Source: Bacteroidales bacterium (GTDB taxonomy: Bacteria > Bacteroidota > Bacteroidia > Bacteroidales > WCHB1-69). Taken from it: a stretch of 64,000 nucleotides of DNA. How positions within the stretch are numbered: position 1 is the stretch's first letter; each line of letters opens with the position of its first letter. Shown one piece after another: positions 930-11,858 of this stretch. The stretch lies in assembly GCA_017554325.1 (NCBI GenBank), contig JAFZIP010000006.1, forward strand, positions 62,001-126,000, in the 5' to 3' direction. The translations under genes and the position numbers were made by a program. Below the pieces are notes generated by a model, which was given only the letters and a program-made list of their open reading frames with translations, was not told the DNA's origin and made no database searches.

Positions 930-1002
930 GAGACACTTATTTAGTATAAACATTAGTTGAATTATTATTATTTATATCATGCTGAATTGAATATGAAAGT
1001 GC

Positions 1003-1030
1003 TTGATATAAAAATGTTTTTGTATTTTTG
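1003..1030 (+). promoter_or_regulatory. Bacteroidetes-type promoter for the Fic gene
   Basis: TTG at 1003-1005 and TATTTTTG at 1023-1030 fit the TTTG / TAnnTTTG consensus with a 17-bp gap. It lies about 110 bp upstream of the Fic start, leaving a leader made of the 24-bp repeats. Confidence 0.65.
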
Positions 1031-2684: not shown

Positions 2685-2692
2685 TATCTTTG
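2685..2692 (+). promoter_or_regulatory. -7 box upstream of the structured RNA and helicase
   Basis: TATCTTTG fits TAnnTTTG. No good -33 TTTG is seen at the right distance, so this rests on the -7 box and its place just ahead of the structured RNA region. Confidence 0.5.
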
Positions 2693-2775: not shown

Positions 2776-2935
2776 AAAGCGTTTTTGCTTTTCAAGTGGA
2801 CCTGAAATCGCCAAATTTCATCATATTAACCACGCAAGAAAGCGGAACGCTCACGGTATATCCGTGGGCTTTCTTGTTTGTGGTTAAGGTTTTGGCGAAC
2901 CGCAGGTCCAGACAGAGGTTCACGGATTCTTTTTT
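2776..2935 (+). ncRNA. Long structured RNA with possible pseudoknot, upstream of helicase gene
   Basis: The spacer between the Fic and helicase genes folds into a nested hairpin with perfect arms: 2797-2804 with 2903-2910 (8 bp), 2809-2815 with 2891-2897 (7 bp), 2826-2833 with 2880-2887 (8 bp), 2835-2843 with 2868-2876 (9 bp), and an apical 5-bp stem 2852-2856 with 2862-2866. The apical 3' strand ATCCGTG (2860-2866) is also perfectly complementary to CACGGAT (2921-2927), just before a T run (2928-2935), so a pseudoknot or an alternative fold is possible. A small stem AAAGC/GCTTT (2776-2791) precedes it. I cannot match it to a named RNA family. It could be an independent small RNA, a 5' leader of the helicase operon, or a palindromic mobile element. 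Confidence 0.6.
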
Positions 2936-2977: not shown

Positions 2978-5900
2978 ATGAGTACCAAATTTTTCAATAA
3001 TATCGAGACGAGGCTGATGGACAAGTTCCACGGCATCGCCTCTGCAATGGCTAACTTTGACATCTTCCATGCCGTGGTTGGCTATTTTCGTTCCAGTGGC
3101 TACTTCAAACTACGAAAGGAGTTGGAGAATGTCAGCGAAATCCGAATCCTCGTCGGAATCAACATAGACAACATGTTCCATCGCTCACAAGCATCTGGAC
3201 GCATGTTCTTCGGTGACCGTGAGGAATCGCTTGAAATGTATTGTCATGACTTTCTGCGTGACGTGCGGCAAGCCGATTACAGCAACGAAGTAGATGAAGG
3301 CATCCGCCAGTTCTGTGAAGATATTGCCACTGGCCGCTTGGAGTTGCGCATTCACCCCACCCGCGACCTCCACGCCAAATTCTACCTATGTTTACCTAAA
3401 CAGCATTCCGAACATAGCGACGGCTGGGTTATTATGGGCAGCAGCAATATTAGTGCCCAAGGTCTTGGAATCAGCGAACCGCCACGCTACGAGCTCAATG
3501 TGGCCATGAAAGATTACGACGATGTGGCCTACTGTGAGCAGCAGTTCCAAGAACTTTGGGAAAATGCCATCCCCGTTACGGCAAAGGACATGAGCCACAT
3601 CATGGAAAATACCCATATAGTCTCGGAAGAGCTACGGCCAACGCCTTATATGCTCTACATGAAAATGCTTATCGACCACTTTGGCAATCAAGTTGAAGAT
3701 GACTTTGTACCACTACTGCCTACTGGATATGATAATTTCACATATCAACGAGATGCCGTGGTGCAAGGTTACGACATTATGATGCGACACGGAGGTTGTT
3801 TCATTGCCGATGTTGTAGGTTTAGGCAAGACCGTAGTCGCAGCCATGATAGCACAGAGGTTCATCGCCGCCAACGGCGATAATACCCGCATTCTCGTTAT
3901 CTTCCCTCCTGCTGTACAATCCAACTGGACCGACACATTCGACGACTTCCATATCAAAAACAAATACAGCCGGTTCATAACCAACGGCAGTCTGGATAAG
4001 ATTATAAACGGTGATGGGTATGATGAAAAAGAATTCTACGACCTTGTCATTGTCGATGAGGCACATAACTTCCGCCACGACAGCACCGGCAGCTATGACC
4101 TGTTGCAGCGTATCACCAAAAGTCCTCGTCTTAACAAAGGCAATGTAAATGGCGGCAAAAGAGTGCTGTTACTCTCTGCAACGCCACTCAACAATACGCC
4201 AGAAGATATCAAAAACCAGCTACTGCTATTCCAAGACACAGCCCGTTGTACCATTGACGGTGTGAGCAATATAGCCGACACTTTTGCTCCTTGGATTAAG
4301 GAATACAAAGGGCTTATGTCGCATCGCGAAAGACTATCGCCCGAAGTACTGGCCGCCACCACTGACAAAATCAACAAAGAGTTGCGCCATACTGTATTGG
4401 AAAAGGTAATGGTACGCCGCACCCGCAGCAACATACAGCATGAGCCTAGATACTCGGGTGAAATTCACTTCCCCAAGCTTCTTGACCCTGAAGACCGGAC
4501 ATACCAGATGACGCCCGATGTGATGTTGCTGTTTGTGGAAACTTACAAAAAGTTGGTGGACACACCCACTGCCAACCTCAAAGCCGTATATCCCGACATG
4601 TTTGACGGAAGCGGTTTGCGCTATGCACGCTATCGGGCAGTAGAATATTGCCCTAAGTACGAAATCTCTTCTGGACAGAAGGCAAAACAACTTGCAGACT
4701 CACTTGCCGGCATCTACCGCACACACATGGTCAAGAGGCTGGAAAGCAGCTTCGATGCGTTCAAGCATTCCCTCCACACACTTCTGAATGCCACCAACGG
4801 TATGATCAAGATGTTTGAGGAGGACAAGGTGATTATTGCACCCGACTTGAATGTCAAAAAACTGCAATCCGACGGCATGGAACTGGATCAAATCATTGAG
4901 CTGGCTCTTGGCAAAGGATATGAGCAGGATAAAATTGTGTTCCAAGCAAACGATTTCCTGCCCGAATTCAAACAAATGCTCGACTACGATGCCAAGTTGC
5001 TGGAAACACTTTGCAACAGTTGGGATAAAGTGAAAGCTGACCCCAAACTTGACCTATTTGTCGATATGCTTCAGGGTGAACTGTTTGACCCCAAACGCAA
5101 CCCAAACGGCAAGCTGGTGGTATTCAGCGAAAGTGTGGATACCGTGAACTATCTGACTTCGATGTTGCAGAAGCGCTTGCAACGCAACGACATTCTCTCT
5201 GTCTGTTCAAGCGATCGCAATCGCAAACGCGAGGACATACGGGCGAATTTTGATGCCAACTACAAAGGCCATCAGCGCAACGACTACAACATCATTGTTA
5301 CCAGCGATGTGTTGGCCGAAGGTATCAACCTGCACAGAGCCAATGTCATCGTCAACTATGACTCACCCTGGAACGCCACCCGACTGATGCAGCGTATCGG
5401 CCGTGTGAATCGTATCGGCTCCACCGCTCCAGCCATCTACAACTATATGTTCTACCCTTCCGACCCAGGCGATGCCATCATCAGCTTGAAAAAGAATTCG
5501 CTTATCAAGTTGCAGAGTTTCCATTCCGCATTAGGCGAGGACACCAAGATTTATTCCCATGATGAAATTGTTCAAGAGTTCAAGTTATTCAACTCAGACG
5601 TAACGGACGATACAGACCTCAATCTTGAGCTTTTGCGCGAGGTGCGTGCCCTGCATGACAGTGATGCCGCGCTCTACCGCCGCATCAAGCAGATTCCATC
5701 CAAAAGCAGCTGTGCAAGAAAAGGTGCAAGGCAGGAACCGACAGTAGGAAAAGGCACTGTCACTTATCTCTCCTCCGAGACCAAGAAAGCATTCTATCTT
5801 GTTGGCGAACATGTGAAGGAGCTTTCGTTCCTTGAGGCTGCCACCATCATGAGGTCTTCTCCTGACGAGAAAAGCTATGCCTTTGGGAGCAGCGAGGAAC

Positions 5901-6298
5901 GGCACTACCGACAAGTCGGCATGGCTATGCAGCAATATAGTGCCGACCAGCAGCGACAGCATCAGGAGGAAAGGCCCAAGATAGGCGGACGCGACAACGA
6001 TGCCAAAAAGGCAGCTGCATTTTTACGAGAGATACGCCCCTCATTGCCCGATGAGGATGCCAAAGCCACCGCCAGCCGATTGAAACTGTTGGTGGAACGC
6101 GGCACCTACAACCAGTTGGCCGACAATCTCAACCGCATGTCGCGCAGCCACAAGAAGAACCCGATGAGCATCATGGCTATTATCGAACGACTTGAAGAAC
6201 TCGACAAGACTTATGGTCACAAGGTTTCTGAAGCATCAACTCCTAATCAAACCGTGGTAACACAAGCCGAGATAATCCTATCCGAGACATTCATCTAA
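2978..6298 (+). CDS. PLD-nuclease / SNF2-type helicase, defence-like
   Basis: About 1,106 residues from the ATG at 2978; a GTG at 2936 is in frame but falls at the end of the structured RNA, so 2978 is preferred. The N-terminus has a phospholipase-D-like nuclease module (HAKFYL near residue 131, then GSSNIS). An SF2/SNF2 helicase follows: Walker A GLGKT near 280, DEAH box near 359-362, SATPLNN motif III, and motif VI RLMQRIGRVNRIG near 800. Such PLD-helicase fusions occur in restriction-like systems and resemble DISARM DrmD in the motor part. The methyltransferase gene follows after 11 bp, implying one operon in which this protein translocates on and probably cuts unmodified DNA. The charged C-terminal ~250 residues match no domain I recognise. 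Confidence 0.85.
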   Translation: MSTKFFNNIETRLMDKFHGIASAMANFDIFHAVVGYFRSSGYFKLRKELENVSEIRILVGINIDNMFHRSQASGRMFFGDREESLEMYCHDFLRDVRQADYSNEVDEGIRQFCEDIATGRLELRIHPTRDLHAKFYLCLPKQHSEHSDGWVIMGSSNISAQGLGISEPPRYELNVAMKDYDDVAYCEQQFQELWENAIPVTAKDMSHIMENTHIVSEELRPTPYMLYMKMLIDHFGNQVEDDFVPLLPTGYDNFTYQRDAVVQGYDIMMRHGGCFIADVVGLGKTVVAAMIAQRFIAANGDNTRILVIFPPAVQSNWTDTFDDFHIKNKYSRFITNGSLDKIINGDGYDEKEFYDLVIVDEAHNFRHDSTGSYDLLQRITKSPRLNKGNVNGGKRVLLLSATPLNNTPEDIKNQLLLFQDTARCTIDGVSNIADTFAPWIKEYKGLMSHRERLSPEVLAATTDKINKELRHTVLEKVMVRRTRSNIQHEPRYSGEIHFPKLLDPEDRTYQMTPDVMLLFVETYKKLVDTPTANLKAVYPDMFDGSGLRYARYRAVEYCPKYEISSGQKAKQLADSLAGIYRTHMVKRLESSFDAFKHSLHTLLNATNGMIKMFEEDKVIIAPDLNVKKLQSDGMELDQIIELALGKGYEQDKIVFQANDFLPEFKQMLDYDAKLLETLCNSWDKVKADPKLDLFVDMLQGELFDPKRNPNGKLVVFSESVDTVNYLTSMLQKRLQRNDILSVCSSDRNRKREDIRANFDANYKGHQRNDYNIIVTSDVLAEGINLHRANVIVNYDSPWNATRLMQRIGRVNRIGSTAPAIYNYMFYPSDPGDAIISLKKNSLIKLQSFHSALGEDTKIYSHDEIVQEFKLFNSDVTDDTDLNLELLREVRALHDSDAALYRRIKQIPSKSSCARKGARQEPTVGKGTVTYLSSETKKAFYLVGEHVKELSFLEAATIMRSSPDEKSYAFGSSEERHYRQVGMAMQQYSADQQRQHQEERPKIGGRDNDAKKAAAFLREIRPSLPDEDAKATASRLKLLVERGTYNQLADNLNRMSRSHKKNPMSIMAIIERLEELDKTYGHKVSEASTPNQTVVTQAEIILSETFI

Positions 6299-6309
6299 AC
6301 CGCAACATC

Positions 6310-9300
6310 ATGAATAGCGAAGAACTGAAACAGATTTTCCAACAGAAATTCGACTACCACATCTTCAGCCGTAAAATAGTTCACGATCTCTTCGGCAATA
6401 ATGATGTTGCCAAAGAACCGGAGCTACTCGACACATCAGCCGAAGGCGACCAGAGCTATTACATAGGTCGCATGACGGACGCCGACGAACGGGAGTTGGG
6501 GTTTTTCTACACTCACATGGCACCGGGATGTGATGTGCGGCGCAAGCGTGTCGGTTTGCGCAAGTTGATTTCCCCCTATCTGAAATACGACGTAGATGCC
6601 GCCATTGCGGTTTTTGATGATGGCCAATTTTGGAGGTTGTCTTATATTTGCGACCTTCAAGGCAGCACCACTTCCGCCAAGCGATACTCGTACGTCATGG
6701 GCTATGTGCATGGCCAATACAAGACTCCCGTGGAACGGCTTACCAAACTGCAACAAAGAGACATTACCCTGTCTTCAATTTTCGAAGCATTCTCTGTTGA
6801 TGCGCTCAGCGATGATTTCTTCAAAGAATATCACCAACATTACGATATGATTGTGGGAAGCTTAGCAGGGCATAGTTTTTCTGCTACCATGCACGATTAT
6901 GTCAAAAAAATGATGGGACGTATTGTGTTCTTGCATTTTTTGCAGAAAAAGGGCTGGCTGTGTGGCGATTCCAATTTCATGCAGAACACTTTCCTGCAAA
7001 GCAAAAGGAAAGACGACTATCTTGAAAGCGTCTTGGAACCGCTCTTCTTCGGAATGCTGAACACCCCACCTGAAGACCGAGAGCAAGCATTTCGCGACAA
7101 TGGCTGGGACATAAAGTTACTCCACCAATGGCAACCTGCCAACCACAATTCCACATCACCTATTTCCCATTACCAATCGAAAGGCATTCCCTACCTCAAT
7201 GGAGGTCTGTTCGAACGGGACGAAATTGACCAGTTGACCATCAAATTGCCCTCGTGGGTTTTTGAGAGCTTGTTCAATTTCCTCGCCTCCTATAATTTCA
7301 CCGTGGATGAGAACGACCCCGACGATGCTGAAATCGGTGTCGATCCAGAGATGTTAGGTAAAATATTCGAAAGCTTGTTGGAAGACAACAAAGCCAAAGG
7401 TGCGTTTTACACTCCGAAGGAGATTGTGTGGTACATGTGCCGGGAGGCGCTAATTGCGTATCTGGACAGCAAAATAACTGACCTCGACGATTCCTTGAAT
7501 GTCTCGGAGAGACATCATCCCAATAACCCCGCACAAGAAAATCGCAGATTTTCGCAGTGTGGGGTACAGGACAACGGGGACGACAGCGTGTCGGAGACAC
7601 GCCACATCCATACAGACATCCGATCCTTCGTGGAACACCACGAATTTCCCGACACTCTGGAACCTTACCGGAAGGACCTTGACCGTGCCCTTCGCGAAGT
7701 AAAGATATGCGACCCGGCTATTGGCTCCGGTGCATTTCCGATGGGATTGCTAAATGAATTGTGGCGATGCAGAGAGGCATTATCAATAAGGAATGGGGAA
7801 GGTGAAATGGGGAATGGAAAGAAAGATGGTTCCATTAGCCGGTTGCAATTGAAGCGTGAAATCATTGAGAACAATGTCTATGGTGTTGATATTGAGAAAG
7901 GAGCCATTGACATTGCGCGGTTGCGATTCTGGTTGAGCATTGTGGTTGATAGCGAGGAGCCCGAGCCGCTGCCCAACTTCGACTACAAGTTCATGCAAGG
8001 CAACAGTTTGATTGAGAGTTTTGAGGGTGTGGATTTGAGCAAGATTTTCAACACGCCGAAAGAGGGCGACCAATTTGCATTGGTTTTTGACGGCGAAAAT
8101 GAGGCATTGGAGTTATTGAAATCCAGTATCCAGAAGTACTTCCGCAACTCCGATCACAAGCAGAAAGCTGCGATGCGCGCCACCATCAACGAGGCGGTCA
8201 AGACATTTATTCATTGCAAAAGCATGGACAATCAAGAGTTGCACCGTCGTTTGGAGGAAATAGACTGCAGCGCCAACCAGGAGTTCTTCCTTTGGCATAT
8301 CTGGTTCAAAGACATTTTCGACAAAGGTGGTTTTGACATTGTGATCGGGAATCCGCCGTATATTCAATTACAAGCTAATGAAGGATTATTAGCCAACTTG
8401 TATTTTCCGCTTAAATTCTCATCATTTGACAGAAGAGGTGATATTTATGAACTATTTTATGAAAAAGGAAACAACATCCTAAATACTGGCGGCATACTGT
8501 GCTACATTACATCAAATGGATGGATGAAATCTCAATACGGAGATAAATTAAGAGCATACCTTGCTAACAACACGAATCCTATCTTATTGGTTGATTTCAA
8601 TCAAATGAGGCTGTTTGAAAATGCCATTGTTGAGACCAACATATTGATATTCAAAAAGGAACAGAATCAATACCAATGCAAAGCCTGTAGTTTCCTAAAT
8701 CAGGACAAAAAAGAAGTACTTAATAATCTTACTCATTCTGTGGAGAAAGAAAGTAGTATTTGTAATTTTTCAGCAACAGGCAGTTGGACCATTGGAGAGC
8801 AGAATGAGCAGTTGGTAAAAAACAAGATAGAATTCAGGGGAATATTAATAGCTAAATGGCCAACAACTATATATAGGGGAATTACAACTGGTTGTAATGC
8901 TGGTTTTATTATTGATGAAAATGTCAAGGAAACAATTTATGAATCTGCTAGTGCTGAGGAGAGGATCTTGCTTGACAACACCATATTCCCAATTCTTCAA
9001 GGTAGAAATTTGAAGAAATACTCATACACATACAACAACAAATATATGATTGTAACACCCAAAGGGTATAATATCAATCGGACACCTGCGCTTAAAGCAT
9101 ATATGATGACTCATTACTATGAGCTTATCTGCAAATCCGGTTCAAACGAATGGTACGAATTGCAAGCAAGCCCAAGTGAGAAAATGCTCGAAAACATGCA
9201 TAAAGAGAAAATATTATGGGGTGAGATTTCTGATAAAGCCAAATTCACATTTGATGATGGGCAATACTTTGCCGAAGCAACAACTTTTATGATGACGACA

Positions 9301-9621
9301 GATGACGAGAGCGTTTCGCTTAAATACCTATTGGCCATACTGAACAGCAACTTATCTGAATGGTATTTTCACAAAATTGCCACGACAACAGGCATGGGGA
9401 CAAACCGTTGGAAGAAATATAAATTGGAACAATTACCTGTTGTTAAACCAAATGCAGAACAATCTCAACAAATAGTGGCAATCGTTGACCAAATCCTCTC
9501 TGCAAAGAAATCCAATCCTAATGCGGACACTTCGTCTTTGGAGCGTGAGATTGATAGTTTGGTGTATGAGTTGTATGGGTTGACGGAGGAGGAGATTGCA
9601 ATAATTGAAAAAGGTGTGTGA
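6310..9621 (+). CDS. Eco57I-type adenine DNA methyltransferase / type IIG-like protein
   Basis: A 1,103-residue protein. Motif I DPAIGSGAFPMG (about residues 467-478) binds S-adenosylmethionine and motif IV NPPY (about 681-684) is the catalytic signature of N6-adenine methylases; order and spacing fit Eco57I/type IIG enzymes. The region after NPPY should hold the target-recognition part. An N-terminal PD-(D/E)xK nuclease could not be confirmed, so cutting may rest with the helicase partner. Two oddities: codons for roughly residues 397-432 coincide with a palindromic repeat element (7499-7602), and base composition turns AT-rich shortly after NPPY, at about 8,360, as if the specificity half had been exchanged. 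It likely protects host DNA at the sites the helicase-nuclease attacks. Confidence 0.85.
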   Translation: MNSEELKQIFQQKFDYHIFSRKIVHDLFGNNDVAKEPELLDTSAEGDQSYYIGRMTDADERELGFFYTHMAPGCDVRRKRVGLRKLISPYLKYDVDAAIAVFDDGQFWRLSYICDLQGSTTSAKRYSYVMGYVHGQYKTPVERLTKLQQRDITLSSIFEAFSVDALSDDFFKEYHQHYDMIVGSLAGHSFSATMHDYVKKMMGRIVFLHFLQKKGWLCGDSNFMQNTFLQSKRKDDYLESVLEPLFFGMLNTPPEDREQAFRDNGWDIKLLHQWQPANHNSTSPISHYQSKGIPYLNGGLFERDEIDQLTIKLPSWVFESLFNFLASYNFTVDENDPDDAEIGVDPEMLGKIFESLLEDNKAKGAFYTPKEIVWYMCREALIAYLDSKITDLDDSLNVSERHHPNNPAQENRRFSQCGVQDNGDDSVSETRHIHTDIRSFVEHHEFPDTLEPYRKDLDRALREVKICDPAIGSGAFPMGLLNELWRCREALSIRNGEGEMGNGKKDGSISRLQLKREIIENNVYGVDIEKGAIDIARLRFWLSIVVDSEEPEPLPNFDYKFMQGNSLIESFEGVDLSKIFNTPKEGDQFALVFDGENEALELLKSSIQKYFRNSDHKQKAAMRATINEAVKTFIHCKSMDNQELHRRLEEIDCSANQEFFLWHIWFKDIFDKGGFDIVIGNPPYIQLQANEGLLANLYFPLKFSSFDRRGDIYELFYEKGNNILNTGGILCYITSNGWMKSQYGDKLRAYLANNTNPILLVDFNQMRLFENAIVETNILIFKKEQNQYQCKACSFLNQDKKEVLNNLTHSVEKESSICNFSATGSWTIGEQNEQLVKNKIEFRGILIAKWPTTIYRGITTGCNAGFIIDENVKETIYESASAEERILLDNTIFPILQGRNLKKYSYTYNNKYMIVTPKGYNINRTPALKAYMMTHYYELICKSGSNEWYELQASPSEKMLENMHKEKILWGEISDKAKFTFDDGQYFAEATTFMMTTDDESVSLKYLLAILNSNLSEWYFHKIATTTGMGTNRWKKYKLEQLPVVKPNAEQSQQIVAIVDQILSAKKSNPNADTSSLEREIDSLVYELYGLTEEEIAIIEKGV
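7499..7602 (-). repeat. Palindromic repeat element inserted in frame in the methyltransferase gene
   Basis: Three consecutive hairpins lie inside the open frame: ATGTCTC-gga-GAGACAT (7499-7515); a composite stem with CCCC (7527-7530) pairing GGGG (7561-7564) around GAAAATC-gca-GATTTTC (7537-7553); and GCGTGTC-gga-GACACGC (7586-7602). Read on the minus strand the central arms are CCCCACACTGCG and CTTGTGCGGGG, followed by TTATTGGGATG. The same arms occur at 12,646-12,676 with a different core. The insert keeps the frame and adds about 35-50 residues before motif I. Confidence 0.75.
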
Positions 9622-9681: not shown

Positions 9682-10641
9682 ATGGCAAAACCAAGAATAT
9701 TTATTAGTTCAACATTTTACGATCTTCGTCAAACGCGTGTGGATCTTGATCAGTTCATCGAGAGTCTCGGATATGAACCCGTCCGAAATGAAGAAGGGGA
9801 TATACCCTATGGAAAAGATAAGGAATTGCAGGAGTATTGTTACAAAGAGATATCAAATATTGATATCCTAGTCTCGATTGTTGGCAGTCGATATGGCAGC
9901 GCAGCTACTGGTGATGATAATTACTCTGTGTCCCAGAAAGAGGTGAGAACTGCTATAGAAAACCATAAACAAGTTTTTATTTTTATAGACAAACGTGTTT
10001 TGACTGAATTCGAAACATACCTGTTAAACAAAAGCAAACCCGACGTGCAATACCATTATGTTGACAATATTAATATTTATAAATTCATTGAAGAAATCAA
10101 GAATTTAACACGTAATAACAACATAAAGGAGTTTGAATCAGTCCAAGACATCACGCATTATTTGCGAGAGCAGTTTGCGGGTTTATTTAAACAATACATT
10201 ATTGAACAGGAAAGGGCAGAGGAGAATCTTGTAATACGAGACATTAGAGATACGGCGAAAACTTTGCATAATTTGGTGGAATATCTAAAAGAGGATAATT
10301 CAGATAAACAAGACGAAATCAATAAAATTATACGAGTTAATCACCCTTTGGTCACAAAGTTGAAAACACAATTAGGGGTAAAATACAATTTCTTTGTAGA
10401 AGGTGTGAGCGATCTCTCTGAGTTTTTAAAAGCACGAGGTTTTCAACGTATTGATGACAGTTATCTTAATTGGGTTCGTAACAGTAACAAAATATCAACA
10501 ACGATAACGATTTCAGGTGATTTATTTGATAATGGCAAACTTGTTTACTTGAATCCAAGTGAGTGGGATGAATCTATGTTAATAATAAGCCATGAGGAAA
10601 TCATCCAAAAGCCAATGGATGACGATGATTTACCCTTTTAA
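9682..10641 (+). CDS. DUF4062 protein with SSB-like C-terminal tip
   Basis: A 319-residue protein. The first ~100 residues carry the DUF4062 signature (PRIFISSTFYDLRQTR, then a VSIVGSRYGS segment), an alpha/beta domain often fused to STAND-type NTPases and found in defence contexts. No NTPase follows here; the rest is mostly helical and charged. The final residues are MDDDDLPF, which resembles the conserved C-terminal tip of single-stranded-DNA-binding protein (DDDI/LPF) used to dock repair and replication proteins. The gene is AT-rich compared with the window. The HEPN-like gene follows, and its frame stays open back across this stop codon, so the authenticity of the end deserves a check. 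Role inferred only: sensor or effector of phage infection. Confidence 0.75.
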   Translation: MAKPRIFISSTFYDLRQTRVDLDQFIESLGYEPVRNEEGDIPYGKDKELQEYCYKEISNIDILVSIVGSRYGSAATGDDNYSVSQKEVRTAIENHKQVFIFIDKRVLTEFETYLLNKSKPDVQYHYVDNINIYKFIEEIKNLTRNNNIKEFESVQDITHYLREQFAGLFKQYIIEQERAEENLVIRDIRDTAKTLHNLVEYLKEDNSDKQDEINKIIRVNHPLVTKLKTQLGVKYNFFVEGVSDLSEFLKARGFQRIDDSYLNWVRNSNKISTTITISGDLFDNGKLVYLNPSEWDESMLIISHEEIIQKPMDDDDLPF

Positions 10642-10730
10642 TATATCTGGGTGACATTCCATATCAAGGTGCAAATGTTGTATCGTATTGGCTTAAACGA
10701 GGTGGATTTGGTTTTAGAAATAGTATTACT

Positions 10731-11858
10731 ATGAATGGACGAGAACATCTTATAGGTGAAAATACATTAATGGCCTTTGAAATTTGTGGTAAGCTCTACA
10801 AACTTTCAGATTATGATACTGCATTGGAAGAAAACAAAGAAATTTTAATGGAATACTATCCTATTTTAGTAGAATTTCCATATACTGTCAGGCGGTTAAG
10901 CGGAAATGCCGTTGAAACAATCAAAAATGCCCCAGTGTACATAAAATGCAGTGGAAAAAAAATTAGTTTATACGAATTAATCAAAGATAATCGAACATTT
11001 GAAGCCCAGCTTCCAATAGTAAGTGAGATCAACAGCCTTGAATGTATTCATGAATTGGATATCGTTTTCAAACAATTAGAAAAGGGAGACCAATACCACG
11101 CTGTTATCATTGAAACATTTAGAGTTCTTCATGATCTAAGTTTTACTCTCAACACTGCCAGATATGCCTTGATGCAAGCTCATCGAATACTTCATTTTTC
11201 GAGTGAGTTGAAATGGTCAACAGGATGGGAACAATTATGGAGTCGTGCAGTATGGCTGAACAATGCAATTGTAATGTATAATTCATGTTTTGATAAATTG
11301 ATTCAAGCAGTTTGGATTGGTTTTGAATCTTATATAGGTTATCGAGAAAAGGATAAAAATGGGAAACTCAAAGAGACTCCGCTCAGTAGACAAGATCTAT
11401 ATTCTAAAAGCGGGCTAAATCGTATCTATAAATCGTGCGACTATAATACGATTAAGAAACGTTTGCCCCAAAATATAAAATCAATTCTTTCCAATAATAC
11501 CATAAAAAAATTATCTAAAGTAAGAATATATGCCAATAAAGTAAAGCACCGTGGAGGCATGAGGTATAAAGGTTTATTCCCTTACGGAACAATCGGTGAG
11601 TTGACCAATGCTTTTTGCTATTCATCTGCTCGAACACAAATTGAGGATGACATGGACAAAATTATAAATGAGGTTAAAGAATATCATAATATATTTTGTG
11701 AATTAGTCAAGACGGTTTTTAAATACTTAATAGAAGAATTTCAAAAGCATGACTATTTAACAGAAAACACAAATAAAGTTGTACTTACCGTTCAAAAAGG
11801 TAAAACAAAATTCGGAGTGTATAAGTTGGGGCCAAATGGGAAAAAACTAAAGATATGA
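10731..11858 (+). CDS. HEPN-like protein, possible RNase effector
   Basis: A 375-residue, AT-rich, mostly helical protein. Near residue 270 is VRIYANKVKHRGG, which resembles the conserved C-terminal helix of HEPN domains of the Cthe_2314 type; the Arg-to-His spacing (R-x7-H) is longer than the usual RX4-6H, so catalytic activity is uncertain. The same frame is open upstream to 10,629 (34 codons, without ATG/GTG/TTG), overlapping the end of the DUF4062 gene in the -1 frame. The real protein could therefore be longer, start at a rare codon, or be fused to the upstream protein. HEPN proteins paired with a sensor gene are common toxins; here this is an inference from context. Confidence 0.6.
   Translation: MNGREHLIGENTLMAFEICGKLYKLSDYDTALEENKEILMEYYPILVEFPYTVRRLSGNAVETIKNAPVYIKCSGKKISLYELIKDNRTFEAQLPIVSEINSLECIHELDIVFKQLEKGDQYHAVIIETFRVLHDLSFTLNTARYALMQAHRILHFSSELKWSTGWEQLWSRAVWLNNAIVMYNSCFDKLIQAVWIGFESYIGYREKDKNGKLKETPLSRQDLYSKSGLNRIYKSCDYNTIKKRLPQNIKSILSNNTIKKLSKVRIYANKVKHRGGMRYKGLFPYGTIGELTNAFCYSSARTQIEDDMDKIINEVKEYHNIFCELVKTVFKYLIEEFQKHDYLTENTNKVVLTVQKGKTKFGVYKLGPNGKKLKI

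Follow-up and report, generated by a model that had tools for sequence, protein, structure and literature searches.

Few regulatory RNAs are known in Bacteroidota. The Rfam motifs described from this phylum (Bacteroidales-1, Flavo-1, Bacteroides-1, Bacteroid-trp and rteR) lie partly in intergenic or leader positions, and in Flavobacterium psychrophilum 64 structured 5' transcribed regions have been mapped, some of which have no Rfam match (PMC9723704). Two described systems are closest in anatomy to the RNA reported here. In attenuators of the trp type, four strands of a 5' leader form alternative pairings (1:2, 2:3 and 3:4) and the last helix abuts a U-tract. In terminating kissing-hairpin riboswitches, such as the purine riboswitch, a multi-helix core with a loop-loop pairing is joined to an expression platform, the stems being variable and the letters of the junction conserved.

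The window, as the whole stretch of 64,000 nucleotides analysed here is called, comes from a Bacteroidales bacterium and contains a structured RNA directly before a helicase gene and a methyltransferase gene (Table 1). We consider it fairly likely that this RNA is one copy of an uncatalogued, phylum-wide cis-acting leader, which would work as a two-state switch with the logic of a four-strand attenuator. A cis-acting two-state leader is a known kind of element. No description of the family was found in open-access papers and, by that literature, the family, the association of a kissing core with the four-strand logic, the spread over Bacteroidota and the unrelated client genes are undescribed.

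The segment 2760-2950 folds as RNA with an energy of -70 kcal/mol, versus a mean of -41.5 kcal/mol for shuffled sequences (z = -6.8), and none of 200 dinucleotide shuffles was as stable. All the stems that the preliminary description had placed in 2776-2935 were located in the sequence (2797-2804/2903-2910, TCGCCAAA/TTTGGCGA, 2826-2833/2880-2887, 2835-2843/2868-2876 and the apical 2849-2856/2862-2869). Its reading of four of these as nested has to be revised for the second (2808-2815/2891-2898), which is better described as a loop-loop kissing interaction of two flanking hairpins, since each hairpin keeps its own stem and covariation is seen in the loop pairs. The simple nested reading, with P2 as a stem, was replaced by one in which hairpin A (GAAAU..AUUUC), a long P3-P4-P5 stem in the centre and hairpin B (AGGY..RCCU) all lie within P1. 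The segment 2860-2866 (ATCCGTG) is, as had been noted, the exact complement of 2921-2927 (CACGGAT), after which TTCTTTTTT follows, and a further pairing, of 2778-2792 with 2838-2851, had been missed.

Table 1. Elements of the leader RNA and the genes that follow it, in positions of the window.
Feature	Positions	Strand	Evidence or remark
Promoter box, Bacteroidota-type -7, TATCTTTG	2685-2692	+	Sequence
P0 hairpin (2776-2780/2787-2791), contains strand 1 (2778-2792)	2776-2793	+	Near-invariant in F082
P1 outer stem, 5' strand, partner 2903-2910	2797-2804	+	97% paired, 87 copies
Hairpin A, loop 2809-2814 kisses loop B 2892-2897	2805-2818	+	Kissing pairs 99.4% paired
P3 stem, 5' strand, partner 2880-2887	2826-2833	+	Covaries, 69 distinct A1 copies
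P4 stem, 5' strand, partner 2868-2876	2835-2843	+	91% paired, 7 pairs counted
Strand 2 (5' strands of P4/P5)	2838-2852	+	Partner 2862-2876 (state A) or 2778-2792 (state B)
P5 apical hairpin (2849-2856/2862-2869)	2849-2869	+	97% paired; both-side changes at 7 of 8 pairs
Strand 3	2860-2868	+	Partner strand 2 (in P5) or strand 4 (tail)
Hairpin B, loop kisses hairpin A	2888-2901	+	Stem 90.8% paired, including U-A to C-G changes
P1 outer stem, 3' strand	2903-2910	+	Pairs with 2797-2804
Strand 4 (tail), partner strand 3	2919-2927	+	94.6% paired; both-side changes at all 7 core pairs
U-tract abutting the tail helix	2927-2935	+	At least 4 T in 69 of 70 A1 copies
PLD (HKD) + SNF2 helicase, PADLOC C3a139/DrmD-like, downstream gene	2978-6298	+	
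Type IIG-like restriction enzyme-methyltransferase	6310-9621	+	

By blastn, three copies of the element were found in the window's own genome, and copies were present in 46 of 148 relatives. A covariance model (R1) matches 37 of the 40 genomes of the window's genus, as many as 16 times in one genome, and flavobacterial genomes as well. As the element is quasi-palindromic, R1 assigned many of the flavobacterial copies to the wrong strand, and the orientation of copies was settled by a broader, strand-resolving model (R2). In a sample drawn evenly across the phylum, R2 matches 60 of 395 genomes and 31 of 171 genera, and it gives six matches in the window's genome (C4, C9, C20, C3, C1 and C10). 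The carriers belong to Bacteroidales, Flavobacteriales and Chitinophagales from gut, rumen, soil and water; the named ones comprise MAGs of Bacteroidales from rumen and gut ('bacterium F082' is one of these) and of a Capnocytophaga, as well as plasmids carried by Chryseobacterium shandongense and Rhizosphaericola mali. On the C. shandongense plasmid (L349, 2439-4059) the RNA lies 3' of the gene of a LexA-family regulator, with dinB/dnaE adjoining, and is followed by an unannotated ORF of some 120 aa.

The preliminary description knew of no matching family, and Rfam 15 indeed gives no match at E<1 for the window. For the tested copies from many lineages, very divergent ones included, no overlapping match at E<1 was obtained with T-box or any other Rfam 15 model. 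Phages gave no match to the leader RNA: on viral contigs the flavobacterial pattern had no match, and the F082-type pattern had a single one (L152), where R2 found nothing. As far as tested, the leader RNA is not phage-borne. Pattern matches in contigs from outside Bacteroidota were without support from the covariance models, and the sampling, which is non-exhaustive, suggests that the leader RNA is confined to this phylum.

A covariance search for compensatory changes in the stems had been proposed, and such changes were found in 87 divergent copies (alignment A5). In this alignment, 93.3% of the cells of the structure with P5 are paired, versus 32-47% in slid controls, and both-side changes are present in 492 cells, versus 132 in shuffles. 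P1 and P5 are each 97.0% paired and the kissing pairing 99.4%. Both sides have changed at all 7 pairs counted in P1, compensatory changes are found in all 6 base pairs of the kissing loops, and P3 covaries within the Bacteroidales copies of alignment A1 (70 copies). Distant copies keep the same fold with very different letters; in L338-L343, strand 3 reads GGACGC and strand 4 GCGUCC. G-U wobbles greatly outnumber A-C wobbles (115 versus 5 in P5, 86 versus 10 in the tail), which indicates that the molecule under selection is the RNA that is sense to the downstream gene.

The copies are associated with a promoter and with the gene that follows. The motif TAnnTTTG was found for 79 of 117 copies (90 sites versus 10.7 expected), with a peak 80-90 nt before the element. 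Among the 109 copies with enough flank for the placement to be counted, the next gene downstream is on the same strand in 100 and is at most 150 nt away in 93, the commonest distances between RNA and gene being approximately 40-44 and 73-77 nt. Orthologous copies are retained before the same gene in several species, as seen for ClpB and the PLD helicase. As in riboswitches, a phylogenetically conserved structured core is found in a 5' leader. In flavobacteria the usual order is a small divergent HTH-like gene, the promoter, the RNA and a SusC-like TonB receptor. The small divergent HTH-like genes of flavobacterial loci L123-L151 are of different families and lie about 105-175 nt upstream of most copies. 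A second conserved hairpin (GGCCCTCTA...TAGAGGRCC-like) is found between the leader RNA and the SusC start codon in flavobacterial loci L125, L126, L134, L135 and L137.

The preliminary description held that the same palindrome scattered in unrelated places would be a mobile repeat. The copies are dispersed, but they are not placed at random: they stand in front of genes, on the coding strand, and are maintained by compensatory change. A mobile or recombining palindrome without a role as RNA, either REP/MITE-like or an attC-like single-stranded DNA, would account for a multi-copy, dispersed element that often adjoins toxin-antitoxin, ICE or plasmid genes. Nonetheless, we regard it as very improbable, given the promoter, the U-tract, the orthologous retention and the fact that no cassette arrays were seen. 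REP/MITE elements would be placed independently of orientation, whereas the placement here is 92% same-strand (100 of 109 copies sense to the next gene), and an attC-like site would have its structure in the bottom-strand DNA, whereas the wobbles are those of the sense strand (G-U 115 and 86 versus A-C 5 and 10 in P5 and tail). A different palindrome, AGACGCAAAATTTTGCGTCT-like and likewise dispersed, is present in F082 genomes close to several loci (L058, L191 and L206).

It had been recognized before that the pairings of strand 3 with strand 2, the 5' arm of P5, and with strand 4 exclude each other, and both were now found to covary. The 3:4 tail helix, which was not used in building the model of the alignment, is paired in 94.6% of cells in the 87 copies, and at each of its seven core pairs both sides have changed. 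Changes in the shared strand are matched in both of its partners: in A1, columns 93/102/179 read GCG in 42, ATA in 17 and TTA in 5 of the 70 copies. P5 and the tail are near-isoenergetic (-13.0 versus -13.2 kcal/mol in A1, -13.6 versus -14.9 kcal/mol in flavobacteria). In the window copy, a nested fold with 3:4 enforced pairs strand 1 (2778-2792) with strand 2 (2838-2851) over 14 bp with one bulge. Across the 87 copies this 1:2 duplex has a mean energy of -17.4 kcal/mol, versus -12.0 kcal/mol with partners taken from other copies (z = -16.8). By group, z is -12.1 for 18 deep members, -9.4 for flavobacteria and -2.6 for F082, the last value being small because strand 1 hardly varies there. A helper pairing found earlier in flavobacteria is part of the 1:2 helix. 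As in a four-strand attenuator, the 1:2, 2:3 and 3:4 helices are mutually exclusive and each is conserved, and a U-tract lies directly 3' of strand 4 in 69 of the 70 A1 copies. The proposal of a switch- or attenuator-like layout ahead of a T run is borne out by these pairings.

Judged by its sequence, the leader RNA is probably a transcription attenuator, and it is from this anatomy that we infer termination, which way the switch works, and the sensing of a signal. In state A, strand 1 would fold back into the P0 hairpin, the central P4/P5 hairpin would be built from strands 2 and 3, and transcription would continue into the gene. In state B, strand 2 would be taken by strand 1, leaving strand 3 free for strand 4, and the 3:4 helix, running into the U-tract, would stop RNA polymerase. 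The probable sensor core consists of P1 and the two kissing hairpins, which bridge both halves, and a ligand of this core (protein, RNA or small molecule) would set the balance between states A and B. Rough totals are -34.2 kcal/mol for state A (P0 + P3-P5) and -29.6 kcal/mol for state B (1:2 + 3:4). Topologically, either state can accommodate P1 and the kissing loops, which in state B would create a pseudoknot. Several observations count against the attenuator: state B keeps P1 only if pseudoknotted, and a purely nested state B costs approximately 12 kcal/mol in the window copy; the covariation of strand 1 is weak in F082; the distance to the start codon spreads from 0 to more than 200 nt, the latter before SusC genes; and the downstream genes belong to no common pathway, whereas those of a small-molecule riboswitch usually do.

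Control through a leader peptide, as in ribosome-mediated trp-type attenuation, was considered and is unlikely, given that AUG is depleted in the leader (61 ATG versus 208 expected in Bacteroidales copies and 17 versus 66 elsewhere). No ATG overlaps the strand 1 region in 71 of 119 Bacteroidales copies and in 42 of 57 others.

Bacteroidota are Shine-Dalgarno-poor. The same two-state leader could control translation instead, with the 3:4 helix before the start codon blocking the loading of the ribosome. This needs identical pairing, and in some copies (L014, L016, L019, L027 and L056) the ATG lies 0-3 nt past the U-tract. However, the usual distances are about 40-44, 73-77 and, for SusC, more than 200 nt. 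Nearly all copies have nonetheless retained the U-tract, and control of translation fails to explain it in those whose gene starts 40-300 nt further on. We therefore hold it to be unlikely. The terminator-like end, the strong fold, the element's own promoter and the several copies per genome would also fit a mainly free, trans-acting small RNA of about 160-240 nt, ended by the U-tract, with the gene being read through or having its own promoter. Such an RNA is possible but unlikely: its orientation is fixed in the sense of one closely spaced downstream gene, the ATG of which sometimes touches the U-tract, and the 1:2 pairing and the balance of P5 and tail would be needless for a simple terminator.

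Genes of very different kinds follow the cis-acting leader; the classes given here are raw tallies, without comparison with the genomic background. In Bacteroidales, at least 17-18 of 91 encode T9SS-sorted proteins, a lower bound because the proteins were cut at 450 aa, and about nine encode PLD-SNF2 helicases. Other restriction-modification genes, FISUMP proteins, BspA-type LRR proteins, ClpB, HTH regulators and ICE cargo are also found. In the distant lineages the genes are those of SusC, ECF sigma factors, FecR, RibD-like DHFR cargo and secreted proteins. The upstream neighbours of F082 copies, which are often HepT, HEPN, YhcG/DUF1016, DUF4325 and Fic genes, suggest accessory islands. One Bacteroidales copy (L332, 2405-2575, minus strand) lies near an rteR sRNA (945-1027, plus strand; 79.6 bits, above gathering), with a small HTH gene on one side, a RibD-like DHFR gene on the other and a topoisomerase gene nearby, apparently inside a CTnDOT-type ICE. 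At L148, a retron-like reverse transcriptase gene lies about 450 nt downstream of a divergent copy.

The preliminary description had considered that the RNA may be tied to the defence genes, guiding or inhibiting their effector. A dedication to the PLD-helicase/methyltransferase system finds some support in the nine helicase genes of relatives that carry the leader RNA, but roughly nine-tenths of the copies precede genes other than the PLD helicase. Among the 26 matches to helicase homologues in relatives only 9 have the RNA, several of the others being fragments that lack the region upstream, and one homologue with 77% identity (L279) is without it. This distribution contradicts the dedicated role, which we regard as extremely improbable. 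The varied downstream genes and the helicase homologues that often are without the RNA argue for a cis-acting leader; the PLD helicase is one client among many, and the RNA is not dedicated to the defence system. In the window, two genes lie 3' of the methyltransferase (9682-11858), the first being probably DUF4062-like, judged by its N-terminus. The pair has no PADLOC or NCBIfam match and may be part of the defence operon.

Surface antigens, nutrient receptors, restriction systems and ICE cargo are classes often reported as phase-variable in Bacteroides. It is rare for a structured RNA that is so widespread and covaries so deeply to be missing from Rfam. Should the switch function as suggested by its anatomy, these same classes would be under a common RNA control, and its ligand or partner would be directly searchable. 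It is possible, as a tentative extension, that one signal acting through one class of RNA switch coordinates surface proteins (T9SS cargo, SusC/TonB receptors and adhesins), restriction-modification, HTH regulators and ICE or plasmid cargo across Bacteroidota, as a phylum-wide regulon that might sense phage, envelope or mobile-element stress.

With the Rfam motifs of Bacteroidota the leader RNA shares the phylum and, in part, the intergenic or leader position, but no tested copy matched them at E<1, and rteR was met only as the neighbour of L332. The mapped regions of F. psychrophilum (PMC9723704) are likewise flavobacterial structured 5' elements, and the 64 may include members of the family. 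Like the purine riboswitch and other terminating kissing-hairpin riboswitches, the leader RNA has a multi-helix core, loop-loop pairing and an expression platform, with variable stems and conserved junction letters. Unlike purine-type riboswitches, it has a four-way arrangement of P1, hairpin A, central stem and hairpin B, and its kissing loops form six Watson-Crick pairs that vary; its genes do not cohere in a pathway and offer no ligand candidate, and it has no Rfam match. With trp-type attenuators it has in common the four strands with alternative pairings, the last helix abutting the U-tract and the position in a 5' leader, and it differs from them in being without a conserved leader peptide, in preceding unrelated genes and in having an extra outer stem and a kissing-hairpin core.
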